Shown piece after piece: positions 9,421 through 61,598 of a stretch of 64,000 bases of DNA. Position 1 is the stretch's first letter. Every line of letters begins with the position of its first letter. The stretch spans positions 19,707,536 to 19,771,535 of the forward strand of contig NC_134524.1 in assembly GCF_027942865.1 (NCBI RefSeq). Reading direction: 5' to 3'. This DNA comes from Odontesthes bonariensis. Its lineage: Eukaryota > Chordata > Actinopteri > Atheriniformes > Atherinopsidae. The translations under genes were made by a program, and so were the position numbers. The notes under the pieces were generated by a model, which saw only the letters and a program-made list of their open reading frames with translations, was not told the DNA's origin and ran no database searches.

Positions 9421-10231
9421 TATGCCCACCCCTTTAATTCGCGAATCGGAGGCTGTTTTCGTATATAAGATGAACAACAGAGCAGTATGTCAGCTGAGCT
9501 GCATTGATAACACAAGTGCAATTTATAGATCAAACACATTGCTGTAACTTCCTGCATAATGTATCTGTTTGAATTTTTTTAATGAAATGTTTATACTGAC
9601 TGGATCTGTGAAAAATACTATGCACACTGTACTAAAATCTGTAAAAACCCCGCAAACAAAGAAACAAAACGTTTTGACCCAACTTAGTGAAGACTTGAAG
9701 GGCAGTTAGAGGCTGACAGGCTACAAGGAAAAACTGTAGTTACAGACAATTAACCACAAATTTTTAGGTTAGCATGCGAGCCTCAACATCATTACACAAA
9801 TAAGAGAACATACTGCAGGCTATTCAGGTCTACTGAACAACACATTCATATATCTCACCTTTAAGCTTGGATGTGTCAGCTTCACTAACTCTCTAAACAC
9901 ATTTTCACTGACAGCGTTCCGGAAACTTGCACAACTTGTGATGGTGAAATGACACGTAAAGTATAGTAGCTTCATCATACAACGTTTTTCTGCTTTTTCT
10001 GAGTAGAATGAATAGATCAGTGCATGTCATTTGCAATTTTCATTTGATTTCTGGAATCACGGAGGGTGACTGAAATTTTTTTTTTCTGCGTAGGTTAAAG
10101 AGTCTGGAATTAATGCACAAATACTGTTTTGATGGTACTTAAATTAACTTCCTGTTCTCACAGACATGGTTTTAAAAAAAACTTGCAGCAGCAACAAAAG
10201 CGGAACCTGTGGTCTTTAAAAAAAAAAATTC
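9421..10231 (+). other. Remains of intron 1 of GIMAP unit A
   Basis: From about 9,487 the sequence is a diverged copy of the DNA just after exon 1 in units B and C. Shared landmarks include ATGTCAGCTGAGCTGC and, further on, AAGCTTG with ACTAACTCTCTAAACAC. In C that landmark lies about 108 bases after the exon-1 donor, so A's exon 1 would be expected near 9,375, which is now foldback sequence. Confidence 0.65.
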
Positions 10232-10740
10232 AGTTTAAAGTTAAAATGTGTAATATTTCACGTTGTCTATTAACAAATTTGAGTCTTATCATTCACAAGT
10301 ATTACCTCAATCGTTATTAATTACCTCCATCACAAAAGTGCAGTGTTCTTATATTCTTTATATTCAGCATGCGAATGAACATAACAGTGTTACACCCCAA
10401 TGAATGTCTCCATGTCGCTCCGCCATTTTAAAACTACGGGATTTGTAGAAGGACATGTCATCAGCTTCGCCCTTTCCGTATCGAAATGTGGAAATGGAAA
10501 GGGCGAAGCTGATGACATGTCCTTCTACAAATCCCGTAGTTTTAAAATGGCGGAGCGACATGGAGACATTCATTGGGGTGTAACACTGTTATGTACATTC
10601 GCATGCTGAATATAAAGAATATAAGAACACTGCACTTTTGTGATGGAGATAATTAATTACGATTGAGGTAATACTTGTGAATGATAAGACTCAAATTTGT
10701 TAATAGACAACGTGAAATATTACACATTATAGCTTTAACT
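10232..10740. mobile_element. Near-perfect palindromic MITE, 509 bp
   Basis: The two halves are reverse complements with very few differences, meeting around 10,480-10,495. Each arm is about 245 bases and includes the landmark GGCGAAGCTGATGACATG. Both strands encode almost the same short peptide for this reason, so neither is a gene. The outermost few bases (AGTTTAAAG against AGCTTTAACT) are less well matched, and no clear target duplication was found. It sits in the intron upstream of GIMAP exon A. Confidence 0.85.
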
Positions 10741-10926
10741 ATGAAAGTCAGTTGATTCAGCGACAGTTATATGGTAGTTTATGTTCCCGTAGTTTTATAA
10801 AACAACCATTACTGATTAATATGTGGAATATATATGTATATATATATAACAGACTTAATTGAAGATGTACAACAACAATTAGTTACATGCAATCATTAAT
10901 CTGAAATCATTACTGTCTTCTTGCAG

Positions 10927-11670
10927 CAGACCTAAGGATCGTTCTACTTGGGAAAACTGGAGTTGGGAAAAGCAGCCTGGCTGAAACCATACTTGGAGAG
11001 AAAGTGTTTGAGATAAATGACACTGCAATCTCTGGAACAAGTAAATGTCAGAGTGCAACCAGAGAGGTTAATGGAAGAAACATCACATTGATCGACACTC
11101 CTGGATTCTTTGACAATCGCAAAAATATAGAGGACCTGAAACCTGAGACAGCAAAGTGCATCACCGAGTGTCCTCATGCTTTTCTCATTTTACTTAAAGT
11201 GGAGAAATTTACGGAGCACGAGAAAGAGGTTGTCTCTAAAATAAAACAAACTTTTTCTGAGGAAGCTTTCAAATATGCTGTGGTCGTCTTCACTCACGGT
11301 GATCAGCTCGACGAAGGGATGACGATTAAAGAGTTTGTGAGAGGAAATAAGGATCTGTGTGATCTCCTGGATAAATGTGGAGGCCGCTGCCATGTGGTTG
11401 ACAACAAACACTGGAAGAACAACCAGCATGAAAAATACAGAAACAACCAGATCCAGGTGGGGAAGCTGCTCAATACAATAACAGAGATGGTGAAGACCAA
11501 CAATGGAGGTTTCTACACCAATGAGGCGCTACAAGCAGAGAACAGACTAATTCAAGAGGAGGAAAGATGCATTCAGTCATCATTAGGACATGTGTCACAG
11601 GAAGACATTAAGAGTCAGGCAAAGAAAAATGTCACAAATCTTTCCACTTTGATTTCTAAAGTCATGGCGG
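10927..11670 (+). CDS. GIMAP/AIG1 GTPase copy A, main exon
   Basis: GTPase of immunity-associated protein family: septin/dynamin-related GTPases acting on intracellular membranes of immune cells. The exon opens at a tandem acceptor (TTGCAGCAG) and encodes ADLRIVLLGKTGVGKSSLAE (G1 P-loop). It continues with LIDTPGFFD (G3), VVFTHGDQL (G4) and GGRCHVVDNK (G5-like). Relative to copy C it lacks three codons in the CPPGPHAF stretch. After AKKNV it departs from C: the C-terminal hydrophobic part is replaced by sequence matching the 5' UTR and exon 1 of the next unit, ending ATGGCGG before GTGAGT. Read without splicing it stops at MAGE. Because that ATG is in frame, splicing to copy B would continue the protein into a second GTPase domain. 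No first exon for A was found; the foldback element occupies the expected place. Confidence 0.8.
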
Positions 11671-11997
11671 GTGAGTAGAGATAATGAATATTTTTCTGTA
11701 GCTTGAATGACTGAAAACATGAAGTGCTAAAATGTCTTCAATTAAAAACTTTCAAAGACATAAAATGCACAACACCAATATGTCAGCTGAGCTGCACTGA
11801 TAACACAAATACAATTAGTAGATCAAACAGATTCATGTTGATGATGTATGAAATACAAGATTGATGGAACTTCTTGAATAATGTTTCTGTTTTATGAAAT
11901 GTTAATGTTAAAGGCTATTCAGATCTGCTAAAGGACACATGCACATAATCTCACCATTAAGCTTGCATGGAACAAATATCAACTTAACTAACTCTCA

Positions 11998-13082
11998 TAT
12001 AGCAGATCGATTCCTTATATACCATGGAATTTTTTTATGATTTTAAAATAATTTTAGGCCCCTGGATAGTCCTGATTAGGCCCAATAAACTATCACCACA
12101 TTTGACTCGAATTTGGCAAACTGGAACGACAGGTGCGTGACGTCGCGAGTGCCAGCTGCTGGAACAATCACCAGTAGTTCTAGTAGCGAAGCCAGCAGTT
12201 TGCCAGACCTGGACAGCTTCTTCACGGCAAATTTCTATGTGTGCCGCGGGACGTCGCTTGGAAATATAAAACGTTGGGTTCAGTGCAGTTTTTATTGCGA
12301 GTAGATGTACGAAGTGCGTGTGTTGCCCTCAGCACCAGCAGCTCACACCACCGGGGACAGAGGAAGCAGAGAGACCTGCGGTCGGAACTTGTGTCTGTGT
12401 CTCCCTGTCTGCCTGCCTCCTCTCCGGCTGATTAATCAGCCGGAGCCATCCCGCCGTGTTCAGCTCCCTGCGGTGTGGACAGGAATCCACCTGGCGGAGA
12501 GCGGACACACTCTCCGCCAGGTGGAGAGTGGAAATCAGCCGGCAGAGCGATCATCAAGATGATGATCGCTGATTTCAGGGCAACCATCCCGCGGTGTGTC
12601 CGCTCTCCGCCAGGTGGATTCTCCCTGAGTGTCCGCACCGCAGGGAGCTGAACACGGCGGGATGGCTCCGGCTGATTTCACCAGAGAGGAGGCAGGCGGA
12701 CAGGGAGACACAGACACAAGACCGCGGGTCTCTCTGCTTCCTCTGTCCCCGGTGCTGTGAGCTGCTGACACACGCACCCACAGCACTTCGTACATCGACT
12801 CGCAATAAAAACTGCACTGAACCCAACGTTTTATTGCCTTCACCACTCAACAAGCATACTACAATAGCGGCAGCCAGGAAAACCCATGGCACATGTGACG
12901 TCGCACGGAAGCCCCGCCCCCAGTCTGGAATTCCAGGAAGGATTTCCAAGCGGCAAATTCAAAATCGCAAATTTCATGCGTTTATGAAATGTTTTGGTGT
13001 AGAGTCCAATTATCATTATTGTTCCTCTGTGTATGTATTATCATTATGTATTGGGTGTAGTGTCAGCTTTCTGTAGGCCTTT
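11998..13082. mobile_element. Inserted segment bounded by a 78-bp direct repeat
   Basis: Copy C has one instance of the stretch AGGCTATTCAGATCTGC to TTAACTAACTCTC, while here it occurs on both sides of this segment. The inserted segment is therefore framed by a direct duplication of about 78 bases. Its middle is a large palindrome. The duplication is much longer than a normal transposase target duplication, so the event may have been replication- or recombination-based. Confidence 0.6.
12265..12837. repeat. GC-rich palindrome of about 570 bp
   Basis: The left arm starts ATAAAACGTTGGGTTCAGTG and the right arm ends with its reverse complement. The halves meet near ATCATCAAGATGATGAT. Internal shorter inverted repeats (GGCGGAGAGCGGACAC) are nested in it. 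It is far more GC-rich than the surrounding intron. Open frames across it are mirror images and are not counted as genes. Confidence 0.85.
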
Positions 13083-13257
13083 AAGGCTATTCAGATCTGC
13101 TAAAGGACACATGCACAATTCTCACCATTAAGCTTGCATGGAACAAATATCAACTTAACTAACTCTCTAAACACATTATTACTGATAATGTACTGTAAAC
13201 TCACACAACGCGTATGCTAGCAGGAAATGAGTGGTTCCACCCATGACTTTCTGGTTA

Positions 13258-14158
13258 CCGTAAATCCTCTAATATAGGCCGGGGCCTTTATTCACTCACG
13301 TGCATCTTGGTCCCGGCCATTATTGGAAGGAGGCCAGAATTAGAGACAGGCCTCTATTTCTATTTGAGCAAAACAGACTACCAGTGGAATGAATAAAAAC
13401 GAGATTTTGTGTCTATTTGAACCTATAAAATAGACAAATACCGGCAATTCAGGCTAAATTCCAGTGTAGTACCGGTAATATGGTAACAGAAACGTAGCAA
13501 ACATACCGGTACCAGTAGACTGCGGTCAAGTGAGCCGCCACTCGTTCATCCGCGGCTCACTTGACCGCAGTTACCAGTAGTGCATTGTCACTTAACCATG
13601 GTGATAATTAGGCTACCGGTATTTCATCTCTCCCCGTAATCTCCTCATCACTCGCTCCAGTCTCTACAACAAGTTCATTATTGTACAGTTCTTCTTCGTC
13701 CTCCTCATGTTCTGCTGCCTGTCTGTTCTCTTCCTCGCGCAGACGGGCAGCAGCGCAGGGCTGTAAAAAACGATATCGTAGTTTGGCCGTTATTGCAAGT
13801 CACAGTGGACAGGCTCACTCACGATCGTGATCGCATTCGAATGCGATAGTGATAGAAGTGAATGCTAATTTCAACATACCATATAGCCTACTTGTTTATT
13901 TTTTATTTTACTTAATTTTGCTTTAACTTTGTTGTTACCGGTAATCTGACTGTAAAGCGCATTGAGCTGCAAGTCTTGTATGTTACGATCACAAGTACCG
14001 GTATAATGTTGAGGCTGCCCAGAGAAATCGTTGGTTCTAATTATAGACCCGGCCTGTATAAGAGTCCGGCCAGTATTTACCTCCTCCGACAGCGAGATCG
14101 GCCAATATTAGAATCCCGGCCAGTAATGGAATACAGGCCAATATTAGAGGATTTACGG
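13258..14158. mobile_element. TA-flanked MITE, 901 bp
   Basis: The termini are CCGTAAATCCTCTAATAT and its inverted counterpart ATATTAGAGGATTTACGG, flanked by TA on each side. The paralogous intron of copy C has the empty site CTGGTTAGTGAGG, showing a 2-bp TA duplication. That suits Tc1/mariner-type transposases, although TIR length and sequence do not settle the superfamily. A second inverted repeat (CTGCGGTCAAGTGAGCCG) lies inside near 13,520-13,575. Confidence 0.85.
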
Positions 14159-14487
14159 TAGTCAGGTTCATTCAAGGAATTAAATCTAACTTTCAAAACT
14201 CTTACATGAAGATCACATTTCTATAAATAAATGTTAGTCACAGACACTCATTTAAATACCTGTAACATTTTAAATTTCTCCATCATTTTTGCTCACCTAT
14301 AAAAACAGAAACACAAGCACACCAGCACGATGTGACTGTACACTGCAGGCTTTTGGGGTCTGCTGTACAACACATGTACGTCTTCAAGACCCCTAAAATG
14401 TCCAAACTGTCCTACTTGAACATTACAATTAATATTGTGAGCACAGGAAATACTCCGGGACCACCATACCCACAAAAAGAAGACGAT

Positions 14488-15988
14488 CAGTGGGGTTACA
14501 TGGCACTGAAAGGATCGGATAATTGGCTAAATTACAATAAGATTGAGTCATTAAGTGCATGTAGACCAGAGCATGTGAACGGAGCGGAGCGCAGCGCAAT
14601 TCCCGCTCAGGAGGATGTTCGCTCATTCGCTCCCCGCTCAAAGTTGCGCCAGGACGCTCCGCTCAAAACTCGCTCCGCGCTCACCTTAATTTTCCTGCTG
14701 CTCAGGTGAAATCGCTCCACGCTCGCTCAAATTTTCAGGAGAAGGAATTTTCTGACATTTTTACTTCATGTAATTATGACAGGGCCCTGGGACACACGGC
14801 GTTTGATTTAATGATGTGACCGGTGTATTGTCTTATTTAACTGGCTGTTAAATTATCGCCACTGTAACGGTGGCTCTGACGTACAAAAAATAATGTTTAG
14901 AAAATGTTGGGCGCTAGGTAGGGTTAGAACTAGCACCTGAGCAGTCAGCTTAATTCAGACAATCAGAAAGGGGAATATGTCTTCACGGTACCTGACCTGT
15001 TCCGAGCGTTCCCGTGTCCCAAAACTCCAGACGAAATACACAATCCACGCTCGATAGCATTTGTAGGCCCTACAGTTCGGGCGTTTCCCTGTTTATTGTT
15101 CGCACTCTCTCTGCAACTTATGCTAGCTCCGCCACACATAGAACACACCGTTGCGCCCTCGACTTGAATTGCTCACTTCCTCATTTACTACGGGTGACAA
15201 GGCCCGCGTGGCTGCTTGTCCCCAGCTGTGAACGTAACATCTCGCTCCATTCATGTTGCCCCGCGTTTCCTTTTTAATTATTAATTTATTACACTAGACT
15301 ACATTAAATCAAAAATGTTATTTTACAAATTTTATAATCCGCCATTTTTATTTGACGTTGTGAGCGCATCGGAGCGAACTGGAGCGGAGCGAAATCCTCG
15401 CTCCGGATTTTGAACTGAAAACCGCTCTCCACTCTGACCATATTTCACCGCTCCGCTCCACCGTCCGCTCCACGCTCCGCTCCGTTCACATGCTCTGATG
15501 TAGACACCTTAATCTGACAAGAAATTGGATCGGCTTACTCGCGATCGGATTAAGACCCCGAGATAACTCGGTTGAAAGTCAAATTAAACGTGTTTGCAGA
15601 CGGGTGAAGCACGTGGTGAATTAGACGATATTACTGTTGTAGTAGCCGTCAGAAAGAAAAACATGCGCCGTTGTGCATTACGTTTGTGCATTAAGCAGCT
15701 CATCACAAATTAAATGTAGAGGGACGTAGCTTCATCTTGCTCTTCATTCGCCATTTTCTCAAATGCCTGAGGTTGTTGGTGGTGGTGAAGCGGTCAACCG
15801 GAAGTGGCTCTATTAGCAATAGTTGAAATGGGTACAGCGCCACCTATCGTATCGGAGTATGACATGCTTTGTGCCTCTGATCCGATTCATTCACCGCCAT
15901 ATATCCAAGGATAATTACCCTTGCTCAAATCATTCTTATTGTAATTTAGCCAATAATCCAATCCTTTCAGTGCCATGTAACCCCACTG
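14488..15988. mobile_element. Older hAT-like element with CAGTGGGG termini
   Basis: The left end CAGTGGGGTTACATGGCACT is matched in inverse at the right end (AGTGCCATGTAACCCCACTG). The homology continues inward through GGATAATTGGCTAAATTAC. In copy C only the left part and a short remnant survive, so the insertion predates the B/C duplication and C then lost the right end. No clean target duplication remains. A younger hAT MITE is nested inside. Confidence 0.65.
14567..15497. mobile_element. hAT-type MITE, 931 bp, CAGAGCATG termini
   Basis: The termini are CAGAGCATGTGAACGGAGCG and the inverted CGCTCCGTTCACATGCTCTG, flanked by the 8-bp duplication ATGTAGAC on both sides. Copy C retains the uninterrupted site (GCATGTAGGCACC), so the insertion postdates the duplication. 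The interior near both ends is rich in CGCTCC repeats. No transposase is encoded. Confidence 0.9.
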
Positions 15989-16212
15989 AGTGATGGTTTA
16001 CAAAATAGAAGAGCAACAATCAGAGTGAAGCAAGAAAAGATTTGGAATCGTGGAGGGTGACGTGAAAGAAATCTTTCTGTGTGGGTTCAAAAAGCTTCTT
16101 CATCTGCTCAAATACTGCTCTGATGATATGCAAGTGGACATGTGTGTGTATGTGTGTATAATGTATTTAATTGAAGATGCAATAATGTGAAATCATTACT
16201 GTCTTCTTGCAG

Positions 16213-17494
16213 CAGACCTAAGGATCGTTCTACTTGGGAAAACTGGAGTTGGGAAAAGCAGCCTGGCTGAAGCCATATTTGGAGAGAAAGTGTTTGAGAT
16301 AAATCACACTGTAAACTCTGAAACAAGTAAATGTCAGAGTGCAAGTAGAGAGGTTAATGGAAGAAACATCACATTGATCGAGACTCCTAGATTCTTTGAC
16401 AATCGCAGGAATGAAAAGGACCTGAAACCTGAGATAGCAAAGTGCATCACTGAGTGCTCCCCTGGCCCTCATGCTTTTCTCATTATACTTAAAGTGGAGA
16501 AATTTACAGAGCACGAGAAAGAGGTTGTCTCTGAAATAAAACAAACTTTTTCTGAGGAAGCTTTCAAATATGCTGTGGTCGTCTTCACTCACGGTGATCA
16601 GCTCCCTGAAGGGATGACGATTAAAGAGTTTGTGAGAGGAAATGAGGATCTGCGTGATCTCCTGAAGAAATGTGGAGGCCGCTGCCATGTGGTTGACAAC
16701 AAATACTGGAAGAACAACCAGCAGCATGAATACAGAAACAACCAGATCCAGGTGGGAAATCTGCTCAGCACAATAACAGAGATGGTGAAGACAAACAGTG
16801 GAGGTTTCTACACCAATGAGATGCTACAAGCAGTGAACAGACGCATTCAGTCACAGGAAGACAATGGGCCTCATGCAAGAACATTTTCGTATTTCTATTC
16901 TAAATTTATCTCACTTTTTTCGTAAGGTCTCGTACGAACACGCTACGTCAGATTCAACAAGCGCGCTTAACTTCGGAAAAAGTGTGTAAACGACCTGTGT
17001 AAATGATGAATCCCACCTGTGCGTATTTAAGGGGCACGTGCACGAGGATAGTACATTTGCATACTCCACGCCCAAAATGATACCATATAAGGCTGTGCTT
17101 CCTCTCTCCTGTGCCAGGAAAAGTTGAGTGTTGAGTCATGAGAATGAAACAGTGTCAGCAGTGGAATTACGGGACCTGCTAAAGCCAAGATATGGGAAGC
17201 AATTAGGAGTGCTGTTAATACCATGTCACCTGTAGTTCGTAATGTCACCTAAATAAAAAAGCTGGAGGAACTGCAGCATCAGGTGTGGTAGCTGGTATAG
17301 CAGCAGGAGCTGTTACTATTGGAGGAGCAGCAGCTGGAGGTTATATTGGGTATTATGAAGCTGATAAATCACACTCGGCTGTAGAAGCGGTAATGAACAC
17401 AGCTAAGGCTGTTGGTAATCTTGCTGCAGAGCCGATTAAAAAAGTGTTAAATATAAAGAAAAGCAAAGCTCGGAGGACAGTAAGGCTCTGTTAA
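16213..17494 (+). pseudogene. GIMAP/AIG1 GTPase copy B, broken
   Basis: The exon begins at the same tandem acceptor as A and C. It encodes a P-loop (GKTGVGKSSLAE), an intact THGDQL (G4) and RCHVVDNKYW. The G3 motif DTPG has become ETPR, which should impair nucleotide hydrolysis and Mg coordination. After RRIQSQED a MITE interrupts the exon and supplies a stop at 16,923-16,925. Beyond the MITE the frame of the Gly/Ala-rich C-terminus is still readable (GIAAGAVTIGGAAAGG, then YEADKSHSAVEAVMNTAK) to a stop near 17,494. About 168 bases of coding sequence present in C are missing at the insertion. It may survive only as the second half of an A-B fusion lacking the C-terminal region. Confidence 0.75.
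16864..17260. mobile_element. MITE fragment disrupting GIMAP copy B
   Basis: Alignment with copy C shows about 397 extra bases starting ATGGGCCTCATGCAAG and ending in ACCTAAATAAAAAA. They replace about 168 bases of coding sequence. The GGGCCTCATGCA terminus recalls fish Harbinger-type MITEs, but no matching inverted end or target duplication remains, so the assignment is tentative. Confidence 0.5.
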
Positions 17495-18720
17495 ACTAGG
17501 CTGCGGCTGAGCTTTTATTAAGCTTATTAGACGAAGGAACATTTTAAGTTTACATGAAGACTAAGAAATACATGTCATACTTTAACTACTGGAAACCTAA
17601 ACAATACATCTATTCATTTATTTGTCTTTTATCCCGCTTTCACACCTAAATGAACTTTAACTGGATATTTTTCCCCTTAAAAGATCTTGTTTTTGGCCTG
17701 ATAATCAGAGCATTTCCTATTTTACTTTCTGTCTTCATTTTATTCTGCGCTGATTTGGAATTGGGATGGGAGTGTTACAATACATTTTTAAATTCTCTTT
17801 TAGCAAATTTGTTCAATCTAAATATGGAAGTTGAGGGAATCTGAACACAGTTTTCTTTGCCAGGTGTGGTTTTGTACAGATTCGTTGATAAGTTGATTTC
17901 TGTAGTTGACTCTTTTGTGTGCAGGTGTCATTGTTTTTGTCACTTATTTTATGCATTATACAAAGACTGATAAAGGTCACTGGAACAGAGCGTCGGCTGT
18001 TTAAAGGGAATGTTGCTTTAAGGTTTAACAATGATATTTTTCTAATATGAAACATGTATACTGCTGTTCAAACACTGCTCTTTACGCATGTAATGTTAAT
18101 CATGAATAAAAAAAACCTCCTGTATTGTTGGTTTCTTTTTATCTTAATCATTTACACACACACACAAAATCGGTCTTTTGACTTGATTTAAGTGCAGGTT
18201 GCCTTTTAGGTTTAAGCAGAATATTTGACAGTTTTATTTCCAATGAAGTCCTCACTCATAAGACATCCCAACGTTTCCATGTTTGATTGTAATGTGGAGT
18301 GTGGTCAGAGTGAGCAGCCACAAATACTCAGTCAGATATGAGTTGTTGCAGATCAGCAGGAACAGCTGAGAACAGGATGAGAGGAAGAAGCTCTCAGCAC
18401 CATCCCCTCATTAAACTACTTTCAGTACATTTCCAAACTGATCTGCATGGAATGTGAAGTTTAGTTTCAGTCCTGTTCTCAGCTGTTCCTGCTGATCTGC
18501 AGAGGGACTGAGTTCAAGCCTTTTCCAGGTTCCACTCAATTTTTATCAGTCTTCAAGCTTGTGTCTTGGATCTTAATTGTGTGTAAGCCCATAAAGTCTT
18601 GCAGATTGTTAGTTTTCTGTGACATGTGTTTCCAATAAGCTAAAAGAAGCCATGGTAGCTTATCATATATATTGTGGTTCAGAAGGGGATTCATTTCATT
18701 ATGTGAAATGGTTTTCTTTT
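17495..18720 (+). other. Conserved 3' flank of GIMAP unit B
   Basis: This region aligns closely with 29,741-30,895 after copy C, so the duplicated unit includes the 3' UTR and downstream DNA. Likely 3' UTR with ATGAATAAAAAAAA near 18,100. No independent gene was seen. It contains a perfect 31-base inverted repeat described separately. Confidence 0.6.
18347..18502. repeat. Perfect 31-bp inverted repeat (hairpin), copy 1
   Basis: TGCAGATCAGCAGGAACAGC and the following bases are repeated in inverse about 95 bases later, giving a 31-base perfect stem. The same hairpin is kept after GIMAP copy C at about 30,522-30,675. It could be the remnant of a palindromic MITE or a structured RNA; nothing here decides between them. 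Confidence 0.7.
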
Positions 18721-26879: not shown

Positions 26880-27108
26880 GTTACATGTAATGTTTTCTGT
26901 CCACATTTAGAGGAAGTTTCAAGTCTTTGTGAGTTAAAACATTGTCAGAGGCAGTTTGAAACTAGCTCCGCCTCTAAAACACCATTATTTTCCCCTGTTA
27001 TTGCATCTCGAGGAAGTGATTTGAACAGACGAGCTACAATCACAGCACAGAACGGAGCAGAGAACAAGTTCCAACAGATTTCCACTTTGATTTCTAAAAT
27101 CATGGCGG
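26880..27108 (+). promoter_or_regulatory. 5' UTR and upstream region of GIMAP copy C
   Basis: The DNA before ATGGCGG (TTTCCACTTTGATTTCTAAA) is duplicated inside the 3' end of GIMAP exon A, so it belongs to the unit's 5' UTR. Further up lie AGTTTC and GAAACT half-sites (near 26,916 and 26,957), but no complete ISRE. No TATA box is clear. Confidence 0.4.
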
Positions 27109-29740
27109 GTGAGTAGAGATAATGAATATTTATCTGTGGGTTGAATGACTGAAAACATGAAGAGCTAAAATGTCTGAAATTAAAAACTTTCAAAGACATA
27201 AAATGCACAACACCAATATGTCAGCTGAGCTGCCCTGATAACACAAATACAATTAGTAGATCAAACAGATTCATGTTGATGATGTATAAAATACAAGATT
27301 GATGGAACTTCTTGAATAATGTTTCTGTTTGAAAAAAAACAAATGAACATTTCATTTGTTTTATGAAATGTTCATACTGAATGTGTGTGTGAAAAATACT
27401 GTACACACTGTACACAAATATATAAAAACACTGTAAAAATGCTGCATCCAAAGAATCATTTGGACCAAACTCGGTGGAAACTTAAGACACTTGTTGGCAG
27501 GAATAAAGTGTAGATCACTGTTGGGCTGTGGTTCGTGGAGCGTGTCGAACACTGGAAGCAGGAATGAATACTTAAAGGAGGGGCAGTTAGAGGCTGACAT
27601 GTCAGAAGGCAAAACCAAAGACACAGACAAACTGTCTTTAAAAACACTAATCACACATTTTACAATTAGCATGTGAGCCTCAACTTCTTTACTCAAATAG
27701 GAGAGCACACAGCAGGCTATTCAGATCTGCTAAAGGACACATGCACATATCTCACCATTAAGCTTGCATGGAACAAATATCAACTTAACTAACTCTCTAA
27801 ACACATTATTACTGATAATGTACTGTAAACTCACACAACGCGTATGCTAGCAGGAAATGAGTGGTTCCACCCATGACTTTCTGGTTAGTGAGGCTCATTC
27901 AAGGGATTGCATCTAACTTTCAAAACTCTTACATGAAGATCACATTTCTATAAATAAATGTTAGTCACAGACACTCATTTAAATACCTGTAACATTTTAA
28001 ATTCCTCCATCATTTTTGCTCACCTATAAACACAGAAACACAAGCACATCAGCACGATGTACACTGCAGGCTTTTGGGGTCTGCTGTACAACACATGTAC
28101 GTCTTCAAGACCCCTAAAATGTCCAAACTATCCTACTTGAACATTACAATTAATATTGTGAGCACAGGAAATACTCCGGGACCACCATACCCACAAAAAG
28201 AAGACGATCAGTGGGGTTACATGGCTCTGAAAGGATCGGATAATTGGCTAAATTACAATAAGTCTGAGTTATTAAGTGCATGTAGGCACCTTAATCTGAC
28301 AAGAAATTGGATCGGATCGGATTACTCGCGATCGGATTAAGACTTAAACGTGTTTGCAGACGGGTGAAGCACGTGGGGAATTAGATTTTGCGTTCTGTGC
28401 ATGCTTGAGATTTTTTTTCCACGGTCGTGAACCGGAAGTCGGAAGAGACGATATTACTGTTGTTATTATCAGAGTGAAGCAAGAAAAGATTTGGAATCGT
28501 GGAGGGTGACGTGAAAGAAATCTTTCTGTGTGGGTTCAAAAAGCTTCTTCATCTGCTCAAATACTGCTCTGATGATATGCAAGTGGACATGTGTGTGTAT
28601 GTGTGTATAATGTATTTAATTGAAGATGTAATAATGTGAAATCATTACTGTCTTCTTGCAGCAGACCTAAGGATCGTTCTACTTGGGAAAACTGGAGTTG
28701 GGAAAAGCCGCCTGGCTGAAACCATATTTGGAGAGAAAGTGTTTCAGATAGGTGGCACTGCAAACTCTGAAACAAGTGAATGTCAGAGTGCAACCAGAGA
28801 GGTTAATGGAAGAAACATCACATTGATCGACACTCCTGGATTCTTTGACAATCGCAAGAATGAAGAGGACCTGAAACCTGAGATAGCAAAGTGCATCACC
28901 GAGTGCCCCCCTGGCCCTCATGCTTTTCTCATTATACTTAAAGTGGAGAAATTTACAGAGCACGAGAAAGAGGTTGTCTCTAAAATGAAACAAACTTTTT
29001 CTGAGGAAGCTTTCAAATATGCTGTGGTCGTCTTCACTCACGGTGATCAGCTCACCGAAGGGATGGCGATTAAAGAGTTTGTGAGAGGAAATGAGGATCT
29101 GCGTGATCTCCTGGAGAAATGTGGAGGCCGCTGCCATGTGGTTGACAACAAATACTGGAACAACCAGCAGCATGAATACAGAAACAACCAGATCCAGGTG
29201 GGAAATCTGCTCAACACAATAACAGAGATGGTGAAGACAAACAATGGAGGTTTCTACACCAATGAAATGCTACAAGCAGTGAGCAGACTAATTCAAGAGG
29301 AGGAAAGACGCATTCAGTCATCATCAGGACATGTGTCACAGGAAGACATTAAGAGTCGGGCAAAGAAAAATGTCTTAAATTTTCTCAAGAAAGCTGCAGG
29401 TATTACAACAGGAACGTTGTTAGGAGCTCTGCTCGGTGTGCCTGTGATGGTTGCTGCAGTTGTCCTGGCATTGAAAGCAATGGGAACAGCTGGAGCAGTG
29501 GCAGTGGTAAGGGCAGCTGGAGGAACTGCAGCAGCAGGTATAGCAGCTGGTATAGTAGCAGGAGCTGCTGCTATTGGAGGAGCAGCAGCTGGAGGTTATA
29601 CTGGGTATTGTGAAGCTGATAAATCAGACTCGGTTGTAGAGGCGGTAATGAACACAGCTAAGGCTGTTGGTAAGCCGATTAAAAAAGTGTTAAATATAAA
29701 GGAAAATCAAGTCATATATACCAAATCAAAGTTAAACTAG
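27102..29740 (+). CDS. GIMAP/AIG1 GTPase copy C, intact two-exon gene
   Basis: Predicted 361 residues. Exon 1 contributes ATGGCGG (27,102-27,108) before a GTGAGT donor. Exon 2 starts at 28,662 after CTTGCAG, giving MAADLRIVLLGKTG in frame. A second acceptor three bases on (CAGCAG) would give MADLR. Domains: G1 GKTGVGKS at about residues 11-18, G3 LIDTPGFFD, G4 VVFTHGDQL and GGRCHVVDNKYW. Then come an amphipathic charged helix (EEERRIQSSSGHVS) and a Gly/Ala-rich hydrophobic region from about residue 245 (GTLLGALLGVPVMVAAVV, AGAAAIGGAAAGG). A basic tail ends the protein. The P-loop is followed by Arg (GKSRL) where other copies have Ser. Family members act on intracellular membranes in lymphocyte survival and immunity; the exact role here is unknown. 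It is the only intact member of the tandem trio. Confidence 0.85.
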
Positions 29741-31104
29741 GCTGCAGCTGAGCTTTTATTAAGCTTATTAGATGATGGAACACTTTAAGTGTACATGAAG
29801 ACTAAGAAATACATGTCATACTTTAACTACTGGAAACCTAAACAATACATCTATTCATTTATTTGTCTTTTATCCCGCTTTCACACCTAAATGAACTTTA
29901 ACTGGAATTTTATTCTGTGCTTATTGGGATGGGAGTGTTACAATACATTTTTAAATTCTCTTTTAGCAAATTTGTTCAATCTAAATATGGAAGTTGAGGG
30001 AATCTGTTTTCTTTGCCAGGTGTGGTTTTTTACAGATTCGTTGATAAGTTGATTTCTGTAGTTGACTCTTTTGTGTGCAGGTGTCATTATTTTTGTCACT
30101 GATTTTATGCATTATACAAAGACTGATAAAGGTCACTGGAACAGAGCATCGGCTGTTTAAAGAGAATGTTGCCTTAAGGTTTAACAATGATATCTTTCTA
30201 ATATGAAACACTGATTTATTGCCTTTATGTATACAGCTGTTCAAACACTGCTCTTTATGCATATAATGTTAATCATGAATAAAAAAAACCCTCCTGTATT
30301 GTTGGTTTCTTTTTATCTTAATCATTTACACACACACACAAAATCGTTCTTTTGACTTGTTTTAAGTGCAGGTTGCCTTTTAGGTTTAAGCAGAATATTT
30401 GACAGTTTTATTTCCAATGAAGTCCTCACTCATAAGACATCCCAACGTTTCCATGTTTGATTGTAATGTGGAGTGTGGTCAGAGTGAGCAGCCACACATA
30501 TTCAGTCAGATGTGAGTTGTTGCAGATCAGCAGGAACAGCTGAGAACAGGATGAGAGGAAGAAGCTCTCAGCACCATCCCCTCATTAAACTACTTTCAGT
30601 ACATTTCCAAACTGATCTGCATGGAATGTGAAGTTTAGTTTCAGTCCTGTTCTCAGCTGTTCCTGCTGATCTGCAGAGGGACTTAGTTCAAGCCTTTTCC
30701 AGGTTCCACAAAATTTTTCTCAGTCTTCAAGCTTGTGTCTTGGATCTTAATTGTGTTTAAGTCCATAAAGTCTAGCAGATTGTTAGTTTTCTGTGACTTG
30801 TGTTTCCAATAAGCTAAAAGAAGCCATGTTAGCTTATCATATATGTTGTGGTTCAGAAGGGGATTCATTTCATTATGTGAAATGGTTTTCTTTTGTGGGC
30901 TCCACGTTGGTATCGTGGTTAGCACCGTCGCCTCACAGCGGGAGGGTTCCAGGTTCATCTCCCGGCTGGGGCCTATGGGGTGCTGTTTGTAAAGCGGCTC
31001 ACGCTGAAAATTACAGCAATATTTAGCTTCAAACAATGTTTAAAAAACGTGTGAATTTTTGAGCTTCACTTTTTTGCACATTTACAACAATATTTGTCAA
31101 CTTA
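29741..31104 (+). other. Conserved 3' flank of GIMAP unit C
   Basis: It aligns closely with the flank after copy B, including the AATGAATAAAAAAA-like signal near 30,275 and the perfect hairpin at about 30,522-30,675. Minor deletions distinguish the two copies. No separate gene was seen. Confidence 0.6.
30898..30995 (+). repeat. SINE-like repeat with tRNA-like boxes, copy 2
   Basis: Nearly identical to the copy after unit B, with GTGGTTAGCACCGTCGCC and GGTTCATCTCCCGG. Its presence at the same place shows that it was in the unit before duplication. Confidence 0.65.
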
Positions 31105-40600: not shown

Positions 40601-42222
40601 TCAACAGGAATTGTCCTTTGGTTTCAACTTCTCTTTGACAAAATCTTGACATTTTTCCATAACATCCCATCCTGAATGCCACACATCCTTGAGTGCCTCA
40701 CTTGCTGCTTCTTTTGGTGTTTTGGCTCTCTCAGCTGCCTGATACCCTTTAACTCCACCTAACACTGCTCCTGCTGTTGCAGCTGTACCCAGTATTGCCC
40801 CTGCCATAATCTTGGCTGCTCCTGCTCCACGTGCTACTATTCCTTCTGCTCCCACTGCTCCTGGTGCTCCAGCTGTTCCAGCCCCTCTTGCTCCAGCTGT
40901 TGCTGCTCCTGCTAATAGGTCTGCTGTTCCAACTGTTCCTGCTTCTGTTGTTCCAGCTCCTACTAATAGTTCTGCTGTTCCAACTGTTCCTGCTTCTGTT
41001 GTTCCAGCTCCTACTAATAGTTCTGCTGTTCCAACTGTTCCTGCTTCTGTTGTTCCAGCTCCTGCTAATAGTTCTGCTGTTTCAAATGTTCCTGCTTCTG
41101 CTGTTCCAGCTCCTGCTAATAGTTCTGCTGTTTCAAATGTTCCTGCTTCTGTTGTTCCAGCTCCTACTAATAGTTCTGCTGTTCCAACTGTTCCTGCTTC
41201 TGTTGTTCCAGCTCCTGCTGCTCCAGCTGTTGCTGCTGCTCCAGCTGTTGCTGCTGCTCCCACTGCTCCTGCTGCTCCAGCTGTTCCAGCTTTAGCTGCT
41301 TTACCTCCTGTGCATTTTGCTGCGACTGCATTCATTACAAATGTGAAAGCTACTGCAACACACGTTGCTACACCAAAAAGAGCTCCCAACAGTGCACCTG
41401 CAGTAACACCCGATGCTTTGATCAAAATGTTATTTAACCAGTCTTTAGCCTTCTCGTCGATCTCCTTTTCTGACATGTTTCCGTCAGACTGTGCAATGTG
41501 TTGCTTCTTTTGTTGAATGATTTTCTGCACTGCTTGTAGCATCTCATTGGTATAGCAATTTCCTTTGTTTGCTTTTATCGTCTTGTCAATTGATTTAAGT
41601 ATCTCTTCCACCTGGAACTGGTTGCTCCTGTATACATCTTTTGGGCGCCCATTCCAGTATTTGTTATCAATGACATGGCACCTACCTCCGCACCTTTCCA
41701 CTAAATCACACATAAACTCACTTTGGCTGACAAAATCTTTGATTGTTTGTCCTTCCTCGAGCTGGTCTCCATGAGTAAAGACGACTGTTGCATATTTCAA
41801 TGCTTCTTCAGAGAAGAACTCAGAAATCTTGTCAATGACATTCCTCTCTTGGTCTGTGACTCTCTCCACTTTGAGCATGATGAGGAAAGCATGAAGCCCG
41901 GCCGAGCACTCTGTGATGCAGCTCACGATCTTAGACTTCAGCTCCTCTTCCGATATGTTCGTGTCAAACAAACCAGGCGTGTCAATCAGACTGATGTCTC
42001 TTCCATTAACAGATTTTGTTTTTACTTGACATACACTTTGTTCAGAGTTAATCGTATGCCCAACTTTGAAATTGTTATCTCCAAGTATGGTGTTACCAAG
42101 GCTGCTTTTCCCACATCCAGTTTTTCCCACCATGGCAATCCTTGCTGTTTTTGGCACTAAAAGACAACATTTAAAATCAGTTAAACTTGTTGTCATGTAT
42201 AGGAAAACATACATGAACTCAT
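40601..42222 (-). CDS. GIMAP/AIG1 GTPase D with a 17-residue repeat domain
   Basis: The main exon (42,156-40,601) follows a TTTTAG acceptor and encodes PKTARIAMVGKTGCGKSS (G1), LIDTPGLFD (G3), VVFTHGDQLEEG (G4) and GGRCHVIDNKYW. A charged helix and hydrophobic ASGVTAGALLGALFGV follow. A Gly/Ala/Thr/Glu-rich block holds about six copies of GTTEAGTVGTAELLVGA. Then come AGAILGTAATAGAVLGG and a charged C-terminus. A candidate first exon (ATGAGTTCAT, 42,222-42,213) before GTATGT joins in phase to give MSSLPKTARI and 521 residues. The implied intron of 56 bases is unusually short. Reading through gives a hydrophobic N-terminus instead (MYEFMYVFLY), or exon 1 may lie beyond the LINE. The GTPase part is a confident call; the start is not. 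Confidence 0.8.
40905..41212 (-). repeat. 51-bp in-frame coding minisatellite
   Basis: On the plus strand GCTCCTACTAATAG (or GCTCCTGCTAATAG) recurs at 40,956, 41,007, 41,058, 41,109 and 41,160, exactly 51 bases apart, with degenerate flanking units. It encodes the 17-residue repeat of GIMAP D. The period is a multiple of three, so copy-number change keeps the frame. Confidence 0.95.
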
Positions 42223-42670
42223 ACACAGTGATTCAGTTGAATAAGAAAGGTAAAGCAGTCAGTGTAAATAAAATGGCTGTATAAGCTTAATGAGAGAGTG
42301 GCAAATTGTTTTTCAAGGAGGATTGTTTGTGCTGAGTGCCCAACAGGCAGGATGTAATGCAGGAATTATGCTGTGGAAATTGCTTTTTCTCAAACCATGT
42401 GGATTATTGCAGATGAGGCTCCTTCTTGAGTTGGCATCGATTGCCACATGTATCTGAATAGGAAGTGTCTCACTGGCACCCGCTCCAAAAGATTTGCTGC
42501 AATATTTGAACATGATCTTTCCCTCTGGACATTTCACCAGGGGTCTGGATGGAAAATAGATGATCTTTACAGGAGCCAGGACTCGTCTTTTCAGCCTCTA
42601 TATTTTATTTACCGATTCAACAGAAATACAGGTCACCACATCAGCATAGAAGGATTTCTGAAGATAGTAT

Positions 42671-46419: not shown

Positions 46420-49400
46420 TTAAAAAGAATGTATAAACTTTTCCTTTTTAAACCTCTCCATTAACCTTCTCTTACACTCATCTTCTCTCTTGGGTCTCTT
46501 AGGGCTACACCCACCTTTGCCTTGATCTTGTTGCTGATAGTCATCGACGAACTCTTTGCATTTCAAAGCTTTCTGAATAGATGTGAAGACCTGGAGAGAC
46601 AAGAATGTACAGGGTTTAACATCAGTTCCCGGATACATTCATCTGATGTTTAATATAAAAAGCTCTTTCCAACCATAATGCTTATCTACTCATACGTCGG
46701 ATTATGGCCTTAAAAGACAATTATACACAGTGTTATTTTAAGGTGTCCCTGATGAAAGATGACCGACTTGAAAGAAACGCTGAAAAGAAGAGAAAAGAAA
46801 ATCAAAAAAAATAAATAAATAAATCAGCAAGCAAAATTTACTAGAACTATCTTGCACTGCTACGACCTGTGCCTACTTCCCAACTAAAGCTGTACGAATG
46901 CAAAGTAGAATACAGAGTCGGCTGTTATTGTTACCAAACAGAAATAGCAGTCATGTCTGGTAACCTATGATTCAGAAGGTACCATCATACAGGAAATAAA
47001 CGGCAAACACAATGCATCTGTGGCATCCAATAAACATATTAACACTGAAGTCTCAAGTCTTTAAGTGCTTTTAATTGAAGCCTGCATTGCATCAAAAAAA
47101 TCCAAATCATCTGGAAACCAACTTTATAATAAGCAAAAAAAGGACTTTGTGAACTCTTCAGTTGTAAATAATTAGTGGCACCATGCATTAATTACCTCAT
47201 AAGCCTCGTCATCATTGGGGTATATGACAATGCGGACCAGGAGCGGTGAGCTGTTGGTTCGGCCCTGTTCAAATTTATTAACTTCCTCCAGTAACACCTT
47301 GGCTACCACGGTGTCAGGAAAACGAAGGGCAAGCCCAGACCCGAGCACCGGAAAAGCGACAGATCCAAACCCTCTGTTCTCACAGGCAGTCAGGATGTTG
47401 CTGATGCCCACTCGCAGCACCTGTAAAAGGTAAACATCCAGAATTCTTCAAGGGCATGCACACAGCTTAATGGAAACACGCCCCACGCACACTGCTCTCA
47501 CGACAAGAAATTCTCACAGAAACGCCCAGTAATTTCACCTCGACTGGAGATCCATTTTCATCATTATCCCAGCGACAGAGGTTGACGAACAACACTGCAT
47601 GAGATGGAAGTCCAGGCAACCCCTCCACCAGCACTGAGTCGCCAGGCATCGATTCATCTCTTTCTTCTGCTCGAAACCTTGAAGTCAGCTGAGGACCGAC
47701 GATTTCATTCAAAATGTTACCAATTCGGGTAGAGAGAGGATCATGGAGAACCATGGGTGATACCATGGCATCAACCTGAAAGACGAACAGGACATGTGGT
47801 GCAGATTGAACAGCAAATTAGTCAGCTTACTGGTCTGTAGCCACAATGATGTGAAATATGCAAAAAAAAAGAGGCGTGGCAATTAGTTGTCAAGCCAGAA
47901 ACTGTGTGTTTGCATAACTTTATAAGAAGGAAATGGTAGATGTGCAGATAGAGAACAGCTGATCTATTTTGAGAGATGTTTCCTGTCACCCGATGATTTA
48001 AAATCAGACATCCACACCACTTTAAGTTTTGCAAGGTATTTCTCACCTGTTGGGTCTCGATGGTCCCCTGAACAATCTCTACACAGACTCTGCCTCCAGG
48101 TACTTCAGCCTCATCTGGGTGAATCTGGGCAGAGGAGCATTCAGAGGTCAGCTCTTCCTCCTGGTCTTCCTCAGCACTGGGCCTTTCCTTCAGGGAGGTC
48201 GATGGCTGATCGTTAGGTTGTAGCTCACAATCTTCACCACTTGATGAAGCACCTGAGGCAGGAATGGACTGAGGGTCCTGCATCAAAAACACATTCAAAT
48301 CTTAACAGTTTACTGTTCTCAGTGACTGACATGTGTCAGATCAGAGAAACCTTGACGAAATGACTAAAAGAAATTGCGCTGACCTCTTCTGGAGCTGTGG
48401 GGGTGGTGCTGTTAGAGTGGGTGGGAGCTTCCCAGCTGCCCCGGACAGTGAACACCAGGCGACCATCTGCGAGCGCCACAGCATGCTCGGATCTCTTTAG
48501 GACTTCCTGCTGATCTAAAACAGAATGTGTCACATTTGTTATTTCAAGCATTAAACATGACCTAAAGAATACATTTATTCTCATGTCATGCTATGCATAA
48601 CTACCACACAGAGACAAGAATGAAGCTAATCATTTATATGAGCCGCGACAGTTATTCTTTAAAATGGCTGCTGTGGATACATGGAGTCATATTTGGGAAA
48701 CAATTGAAAAATACTGATTTAATTTCCTCTTGGACACTGTACATGTCAGACAACATATATTTTGATTCCAAGATATCTGTGACAAAGCTCTTATAAGCCG
48801 ATCAGCCACAACATTATGACCATTAACAGGTAAAATGAGTGACACTGCTGATCTTGATCATAAGCAAAGTCCTCCTAGAAAAGAGTCAGTCCACATGTGG
48901 CAACAGCATTCCCCGGCAGCAGCAGCTGGAATAACTGGAGGAAGGAATCAAATAAGGCATCAAAGGTTTTCAAAGCACCCCAGATAACAATCTGATTGGA
49001 ACTGGTGCCATCTGTGGAAGGAAGCTCAATTCACAGAGATGTCATCCAAAAACCCAAAGGCCTTTAAAGGGGAACTCCGGGGCATTTGAAGCGCATTTCC
49101 ATTGCTAGAGGTTGTCAAATACTGATAGTAGGACACAAACAGGTGCAAATCTGCGCTCCCTGTGTGGAGATCGCGCTGTTCGCTCAGCCTGTCATGCGAG
49201 GCTAATACGTGGTGGCTAAGGGGCAAGCGCTAACCCTTCCACGTAAAACAACAACTTGCACACTGCAGAAACGTCACACCACTTTATAAACCATCCGACA
49301 ATAAAGTCACAACCCTTACCATCAAAACCATATGCATGGTTCTCACATTACTGGCATGGGGACGTTACAAAACAACTTTATAAACAGCATGTAACTCACC

Positions 49401-60010: not shown

Positions 60011-61598
60011 CTAATCGTCGCTTTGCCCCTCTGCACCCCCAAATCCTAAACTCGACGTGGACTCATTCCAAACAGCATCCATGGCTTTCTGAAACGCATC
60101 CCTTGTAGTTTCTGCTCCTGCAGCAGCATGATATCCCGCCACACCTCCTTTTACAATCCCACTGAAAGCAGCAGACACAATTGATGCCTTTTGTGGGTCT
60201 GTTGATACCAGCGCTGCAACATCTGAATTTCCTTGTACATTTTTACCAGTGGATGTAATTCCTGACACACCAAGTAAAGCTCCTAAAACTGCGCCAGTTG
60301 CTGCACACGCTAATTTGACCATTAACTCATTGAGCACATTGGTTTTTGCCCTCTTTCTGATTTCCTCAGTTGACACATTTCCTGATGCCTGCGTTATGTC
60401 TTCTTCCTGCTTCTGTATTTCTTTTTTCACGTCTTTCAGCATCTGATTGGTGTAACACTTTCCATCGTTTGCCTCACTTATCTTGTCTATTGTACGGAAG
60501 AGCTCTTCCACTTGGAACTGATTGCTCCTGTAGGGATCTTCGCTGTGGAGCTTCCAGTATTTGTTATCGACAACGCGGCACCTGCCTCCACATTTCTTCA
60601 CCAGATCATTCAGCTCTTTGTTTAAGCTGACAAATTCCTCAATTCTCATTCCCTCCTGTAGCTGGTCTCCATGAGTGAAGACAACTGCAGCATATTTCAG
60701 AGCGTCTTCAGAAAAATCCTGGCAGATTTTTTTTACGACATCTTTCTCTTGCTCAGTGAATTTCTCCACTTTAAGCACAATGAGAAAAGCATGAGGCCCA
60801 GGAGCGCACTCTGTGAGACACCGAACTATCTCAGTCTTAAGAGAGTCCTCAGACCCACATGTGCCAAAAACACTGTGCATGTCAATCAGAGTGAGATTTC
60901 TTCCGCTGACACACTTGCTTCTTGCTCGAGTTGGACTTCCTTCTGAATCTGGAGAATGACTTATCTTGAACGCATCTTCTCCCAACATGGTATTAGCCAG
61001 GCTGCTTTTCCCAGCTCCAGTTTTCCCCAACAGAACAATCCTTCTTGATGCCAACACTAGGACACAAAAATGTTATGTGAAAGGCATCCAGTTTGAGTAA
61101 ATGTTGGCAATACTTGAGATACTTTAATCAGAACCAGTAAAGTTGTGATATAACTAATAGAGGATGTGAAGCTGACATCAACCCATTATGAATTTTGGGT
61201 AATTTTTATATTTATTTTCTGTCCAAGGTCCATAATGGTATGGTTAGAGGGACCAAACACACGACTTAACTGATGGCAGGCAGGCGTCAGAAACTGAAAG
61301 ACCTTATTCTAAACCAAAAGATGTGGTCTCGGAATGCAGGGAACCTTTTTTTTTTAAAAAGGAAGGGGGGGCTAACCAAGGAGCATATATACTGGGAGGG
61401 GTGATGCAGGGGAGTAACAAGTACAGGGAACGGGTGGTAACATGATGATCAACTAAATGTTTTGAACATTGAACTCGGCAGCAAATGATTCTGGCAGTAA
61501 TGGGATGAGGCTAGTTTTGAAAGTTCAAAGTGTAGAGAAAGTGCAGCATGTTGCGAAGGGTTGACAAAGATATGAATTAAGCTTAACTCACCGTCCAT
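60011..61598 (-). CDS. GIMAP/AIG1 GTPase E, two exons, G3 motif lost
   Basis: Exon 1 gives ATGGACG (61,598-61,592) before GTGAGT. Exon 2 (61,056-60,011) follows GTCCTAG, giving MDVLASRRIVLLGKTG and 350 residues. The phase is the same as in GIMAP copy C. Motifs: G1 GKTGAGKSSLANT, G4 VVFTHGDQLQEG, GGRCRVVDNKYW. The G3 DTPG is replaced by DMHS (LIDMHSVFG). This should compromise switch II and GTP hydrolysis, although binding may persist. A charged helix (QKQEEDITQASGNVSTEE) precedes a hydrophobic stretch (CAATGAVLGALLGVSGI) and a second Gly/Ala segment (SGIVKGGVAGYHAAAG). The tail is acidic (GGAEGQSDD). An alternative upstream first exon at 62,677-62,749 is possible. A perfect ISRE core lies 131 bases upstream of the ATG. 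Confidence 0.87.

Follow-up and report, generated by a model that had tools for sequence, protein, structure and literature searches.

A candidate young two-GTPase fusion in a tandem GIMAP array of Odontesthes bonariensis

In a stretch of 64,000 nucleotides (nt) from Odontesthes bonariensis (NCBI RefSeq assembly GCF_027942865.1, contig NC_134524.1, positions 19,707,536 to 19,771,535, forward strand; hereafter the window), two neighbouring units of a tandem array of GIMAP genes are joined inside an exon, such that the GTPase exon of unit A ends in the start codon of unit B. The join is very probably as we describe it here. Our best overall explanation, which we hold with moderate confidence, is a young two-GTPase fusion that was born by deletion and carries a cassette-type exon; it would be genuine and nascent, and is possibly already decaying. 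Units A and B, whose heads are of the types found in units E and F, respectively, would formerly have been neighbouring single-GTPase genes arranged like the E-F pair. A deletion of about 8 kb would then have fused exon 2 of A, at a point just past the GTPase domain, to the final ~24 nt of the B 5' untranslated region (UTR), removing the C-terminal tail of A, the spacer, the B promoter, and most of the B 5' UTR. The fusion gene would run from the A promoter through exon 1 (encoding MA), exon A, and exon B, and its product would be a tailless two-GTPase protein of 487 amino acids (aa), with a second domain that is probably GTPase-dead.

The join inside exon A

Three close GIMAP units, A (exon at 10927), B (16213), and C (28662), lie on the plus strand of the window. 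Exon A is homologous to exon 2 of unit C over 10897-11644, and the sequence at 11641-11892 aligns to the 5' UTR, exon 1, and intron of unit C (27079-27330, 96.4%), in line with the change from a match to copy C to a match to a unit head that a preliminary description of this stretch had noticed. Paralogs on the same chromosome place the switch at 11640-11642. The tail of units E and F reads AAAAATGTCTCAAATCTTCTCAAG, the head of unit F reads CAACAGCTTTCCACTTTGATTTCTAAAGTCATGGCGGGTGAGT, and A reads AAAAATGTCACAAATCTTTCCACTTTGATTTCTAAAGTCATGGCGGGTGAGT, with the letters CTT common to both parents at the switch. Past this point, the sequence of A consists of the last ~24 nt of the neighbour's 5' UTR, ATGGCGG (11664-11670), a consensus donor (GTGAGT, from 11671), and intron 1, an exon end that had been read correctly before. 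The fused head is identical to that of unit F at 77 of 77 alignable nt and 97.6% identical to a third head over 252 nt, which makes the homology certain. Around AKKNV, units E and F have AAAAATGTCTCAAATCTT and A has AAAAATGTCACAAATCTT; the tail of A had been taken to end at AKKNV and the switch is indeed near there, although comparison with E and F extends the tail of A slightly further. The features on which the argument rests are as follows.

9456..10926, plus strand: 3' part of intron 1 of unit A, E-type (98.5% to the E intron at 19664497-19664825, plus further blocks)
10235-10738, plus strand: inverted-repeat insert within the 3' part of A intron 1 (repeat scan)
10927..11670, plus strand: chimeric exon A, AIG1 GTPase domain and fused head, 744 nt, phase 1 at both ends (Pfam AIG1, E 2.1e-49)
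11640..11642, plus strand: putative deletion junction with 3-nt microhomology CTT, from E/F-type tail to F-type head (paralog comparison)
11643..11670, plus strand: end of the former B 5' UTR plus the B start codon (ATGGCGG), coding in the predicted fusion frame (..STLISKVMA), within the 77 nt identical to the F head
11671..16212, plus strand: old intron 1 of unit B, predicted intron 2 of the fusion (homologous to the C intron)
16213..16925, plus strand: exon B, second AIG1 domain, phase-1 acceptor, ETPR at the presumed G3 motif (Pfam AIG1, E 4.9e-54)
16867..17259 (approximate ends), plus strand: insert of ~390 bp, in place of the first part of the B C-terminal tail (alignment with the C tail)
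17260..17671, plus strand: remnant of the B C-terminal tail and following sequence, detached from the B frame (88.9% to 29515-29911)
27102..27108, plus strand: coding part of unit C exon 1, ATGGCGG, intact comparison
28662..29740, plus strand: unit C exon 2, intact GTPase and tail, comparison copy (366-aa open frame; AIG1 E 9.5e-55)

The flanks of the breakpoint are unrelated to each other. Only 56 of 200 positions are identical in register, and the local alignment score of 9.0 compares with a mean of 9.2 for shuffled sequences (151 of the 200 shuffles reached 9.0). Unrelated flanks that share a 3-nt microhomology look like an end-joining deletion and not like a homologous unequal crossover, and we therefore rejected the unequal recombination that had been suggested as the cause; the deletion would have proceeded by end joining or by template switching through CTT. 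Since tandem copies that are nearly identical can easily be misassembled, we also considered an assembly or haplotype-merging artefact. However, a breakpoint between unrelated sequences with 3 nt in common is unlike the collapse of similar copies, the window contains no N, and the contig spans 35 Mb in an assembly of 187 contigs. An artefact of this kind is extremely unlikely.

Two parental units and the unfused E-F pair

Two head types occur in the array. The E-type comprises the own head of A and that of E; to the F-type belong the heads of F and C, the head that is fused into A, and an orphan head located at 19645455. Exon 1 of A (ATGGCTG/GTGAGT) is found at C24:19705781 on the contig of the window (window position -1754), about 1.75 kb before the window starts. 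A headless A, as the missing exon 1 within the window might suggest, was rejected on the strength of this upstream exon with its good donor. The feature had previously been given as 10927..16925, an interval that does contain the join but from which the predicted gene continues outward to this exon 1. The own head of A is 97.5% identical to the E head and 78.9% identical to the C head.

Because the head and intron of A are E-type (97-99% to E) but the fused head is F-type, the two halves come from different units. This bears directly on a tandem duplication within one gene (from the head to the middle of exon 2), which would likewise put an exon-2 piece ahead of an exon-1 piece. The head of A is 79% identical to C, and the fused head is 100% identical to F over 77 nt. 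A later conversion of the A head would be needed in addition, and we consider this already disfavoured route very unlikely.

The E-F pair, about 40 kb upstream, is unfused and presumably retains the ancestral layout. Positions equivalent to the breakpoint are ~8.0 kb apart (7,987) in this pair, and the matching spacer is gone between A and B, which makes a deletion of ~8 kb the simplest route. We infer both the deletion and its order from this comparison.

An insert of ~11.2 kb (window -1720 to about 9452; C24:19705814-19716991), at a place where unit E is uninterrupted, extends the first intron of A to 12.7 kb. This insert has similar inverted ends (judged by eye), tandem repeats of ~175 bp near both ends, and a nested reverse-transcriptase frame. 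The old intron of B matches that of C in blocks (11641-11892, 13084-13257, 14159-14564, and from 16019), with large inserts between the blocks.

Reading frame and splicing of the predicted fusion

The ATG of the fused head lies in the A frame (open reading frame 10905-11678), as had been reported. The internal Met codon that had been assigned to 11004 is actually GTG (Val), and the first Met of exon A is found in ..LDEGMT.. Exon A, at 744 nt, is divisible by 3 and has a phase-1 acceptor (NAGNAG, either choice being in frame) and a phase-1 donor, so that a splice to exon B would be in frame. Since the end of exon 1 and the beginning of exon 2 are both in phase 1 in these genes, the chimeric exon would form a symmetric 1-1 GTPase cassette. 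The predicted junction to 16213 reads ...ISKVMA^ADLRIVLLGKTG..., and the predicted coding sequence of exon 1, A, and B is 1,464 nt (487 aa and a stop). The double-GTPase frame that had been proposed through the donor at 11671 and the acceptor before 16213 holds as a prediction, strengthened by the phase 1-1 borders and by the intact upstream head of A. We give a spliced A-B mRNA about even chances.

The fused donor (CGG/GTGAGT) is the top-scoring donor of exon A, with 6 of 7 positions in a simple consensus count, and its score equals that of 4 of the 6 non-terminal domain-exon donors in the multi-domain loci of the same genome described below. No donor was seen at the equivalent place among the best sites (at most four each) of B, C, E, and F. 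These donor results bear on another outcome, in which exon A would yield a tailless single-GTPase protein by read-through into the intron, up to the TAG right after MAGE, with B left as a promoterless relic. The A frame does end in this way, and a polyadenylated, intron-retained product requires no new splicing. However, the donor at 11671 is near consensus and exon 1 of both F and C closes with the identical letters, and for these reasons we regard read-through as unlikely.

Condition of the two GTPase halves

Both halves score far above the Pfam AIG1 cut-off of 27 bits (168.1 bits for A and 183.3 bits for B). The A domain has a P-loop (GKTGVGKSS) and DTPG, without stop or frameshift, and B has a P-loop; we take these motifs to be G1 (the P-loop) and G3 (DxxG), respectively. 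Protein identity of the A domain to C, E, and F is 84-88%. A predicted structure of A (AlphaFold, mean predicted local distance difference test score 73.8, five-row alignment) had human GIMAP7 (3zjc) as its best match (E 3.8e-19). With low confidence, the last helix of the model (residues 225-247) continues into the newly acquired residues. No Rfam match reached gathering scores in 9000-31000.

The single-domain genes C, E, and F have the same exon 1/exon 2 layout as A but keep a glycine/alanine-rich hydrophobic C-terminal tail, which the A and B frames lack. The predicted product would therefore be without the GIMAP tail and would probably combine one active and one dead GTPase. With its own promoter region lost, B would be readable only from A.

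Several findings weigh against a working fusion. The second domain is damaged in ways that had gone unmentioned before: the G3 motif of B is ETPR where DTPG is expected (two of four B-specific amino-acid changes by simple count, D to E and G to R), and its C-terminal tail is interrupted by the insert at ~16867-17259, as expected for decay. The stop codon of exon B (16923-16925) lies inside this insert, for which no convincing pair of terminal inverted repeats was found. In exon A itself, three residues are missing ahead of PHAF, and the defective unit D has this gap too. The ratio of nonsynonymous to synonymous substitution rates (dN/dS) is 0.99 for the A-B pair, so that purifying selection is not visible. 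The large insert in intron 1 of A could hinder expression. Neighbouring units are affected as well: exon 2 of unit D (C24:19637826) is without acceptor and first residues, and the orphan F-type head (C24:19645455) has no exon-2 match before the own head of E, from which the array appears to contain several broken units. Finally, 9,869 of 30,000 simulated breakpoint pairs between E exon 2 and the F 5' UTR (33%) were open and in frame, and an open frame alone is thus no evidence of selection.

From these findings, the array may simply be decaying. The deletion would then have ruined both genes, leaving A and B as pseudogenes or an unstable transcript, and the open frame would be a one-in-three accident not yet closed. 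The lost G3 and tail of B, the broken neighbours, the share of simulated breakpoints that stay open, and the A-B dN/dS value all fit such a by-product, and divergence from the relatives is only a few percent, so that stops need not have accumulated in the A-B frame. On the other hand, A retains its head, donor, acceptor, P-loop, and DTPG without stop or frameshift, and degenerate motifs also occur in long open GIMAP frames (DMHS at 60011-61072 and altered P-loops in two domains on C26). We consider decay a possibility to be taken seriously, if a tentative one, and a selected function of the fusion doubtful.

The dN/dS value does not single out A and B, because values above 1 were obtained for 19 of the 21 pairs of exon 2 among units A-G, including intact pairs such as C-F (2.17). 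Between A and E, 36 of 464 nonsynonymous sites differ, as compared with 30 of 1,076 in head and intron (Fisher p 2.7e-5; intron counts from ungapped local alignments). Exons seem to diverge faster than introns here, and either diversifying selection or gene conversion among the copies may be the cause.

Multi-domain AIG1 loci of the same genome

A search with exon A against the genome (945 Mb, 187 contigs) gave at least 148 AIG1-like matches. One array at C25:3.92-4.52 Mb holds 28 AIG1 matches with a 240-aa open frame, at ~20 kb spacing and with near-identical scores. For comparison with A and B, we used three loci with three closely spaced AIG1 matches each (C20:3.10 Mb, C26:17.89 Mb, and C26:7.57 Mb; L027-L029), together with a single stretch from each of C25, C17, and C7.

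Domain-exon starts were readable in 8 of 9 cases in the three loci, the third exon of L028 being without a P-loop in an open frame. The top-ranked acceptor was phase 1 in 7 of these 8 (two by a tie between phase-1 sites), with a phase-1 site ranked second in the eighth. All six non-terminal donors were read as phase 1, one of them picked from three sites that tied in score (phases 1, 0, and 0). With the chosen sites, the six non-terminal domain exons are 687-717 nt long and all divisible by 3. Phase-1 acceptors were likewise read in the stretches from C25 and C17. By these predicted borders, exon A matches the multi-domain format of this fish, with one domain per exon, phase 1-1, and a length of 3n. 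The three loci share ancestry and are therefore not independent tests.

The likeness has limits. As in A, each readable GTPase domain of the C20 and C26 loci lies in its own exon, with phase 1-1 for the six non-terminal ones, but unlike A and B, the domains are diverged (only 30-35% identical to A) and their linkers carry no start relic. A start-codon relic (MA before the second domain) was present in none of the five readable junctions of the older loci and was seen only in A/B, which counts against the explanation favoured here. The relic VMA(A)DLRIVLLG that had been predicted for linkers of fish multi-domain proteins is thus absent from all five readable inter-domain junctions. At C7:7.05 Mb, a multi-domain open frame is contained within one exon. 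The earlier proposal that GIMAP8-type proteins could arise by such fusions is consistent with the exon format but finds no relic in the older linkers, and at least one other locus, the one on C7, carries its two domains in a single open frame.

Other features of the window and array

Two more distant GIMAPs lie on the minus strand of the window. The one at 40601-42232 has a C-terminal tail with a 51-bp (17-aa) tandem repeat in seven overlapping copies. The other, at 60011-61072, has a 353-aa open frame with DMHS where the G3 DTPG is expected and is likely a pseudo-GTPase. Outside the window, unit G (C24:20936560-20935432, L023, minus strand) has kept its GTPase domain, and its tail frame is replaced by ..GGRVCVEIVQGTIETQQVRNTLQNLKWCGC.., a sequence that is also present at window positions 47822-48301; this is another tail lost to repeated sequence.

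Relation to known systems and implications

GIMAP8 is described as having three GTPase domains in one protein in the available text of two reports (PMC4201521, PMC3100574). Mammalian GIMAP8 resembles A-B in having several AIG1 GTPase domains per polypeptide, and differs in having three domains as compared with the two predicted here, the second with a broken G3. In mouse GIMAP8, a splice that joins exon 2 directly to exon 5 is expected to disrupt the reading frame, according to the portion of the report available (PMC4201521), which would mean that the mouse gene does not simply string together cassette exons of length 3n.

Snails are already known to have two-domain AIG1 genes with a link to tandem arrays, as far as the available text of that study goes (PMC7053062). 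In Biomphalaria glabrata, 8 of 91 AIG genes have dual domains, mostly with one exon per domain, and three of them lie in one tandem array. These genes share with A-B the two AIG1 domains, mostly in one exon each; they differ in being annotated genes, some with expression data. The same portion of the study does not describe a tail-to-head junction or a retained start codon for them. Among the papers listed by literature searches, judged by titles and the beginnings of abstracts, there was no description of a GIMAP tail-to-head fusion.

The origin of multi-GTPase GIMAPs is not settled in the cited papers, as far as their available text goes, and this locus offers a young, base-resolved junction with an unfused E-F sister pair nearby. 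Phase 1 at both exon borders is a simple rule under which fusion products take on the form of a cassette. Upstream of the head ATG, the first in-frame stop is met at -150 for F and at -252 for C, and with 5' UTRs open over these 150 and 252 nt and phase 1 at the exon borders, about a third of the simulated deletions would give a spliceable two-GTPase gene. If the fusion is not expressed, A and B would be an ordinary broken gene pair. It is a speculative and rather improbable view that a multi-GTPase immune gene has been caught at birth here, with A-B expressed as a tailless pair of a catalytic and a pseudo-GTPase. If it is true, tandem GIMAP arrays would be standing generators that keep producing GIMAP8-like proteins.

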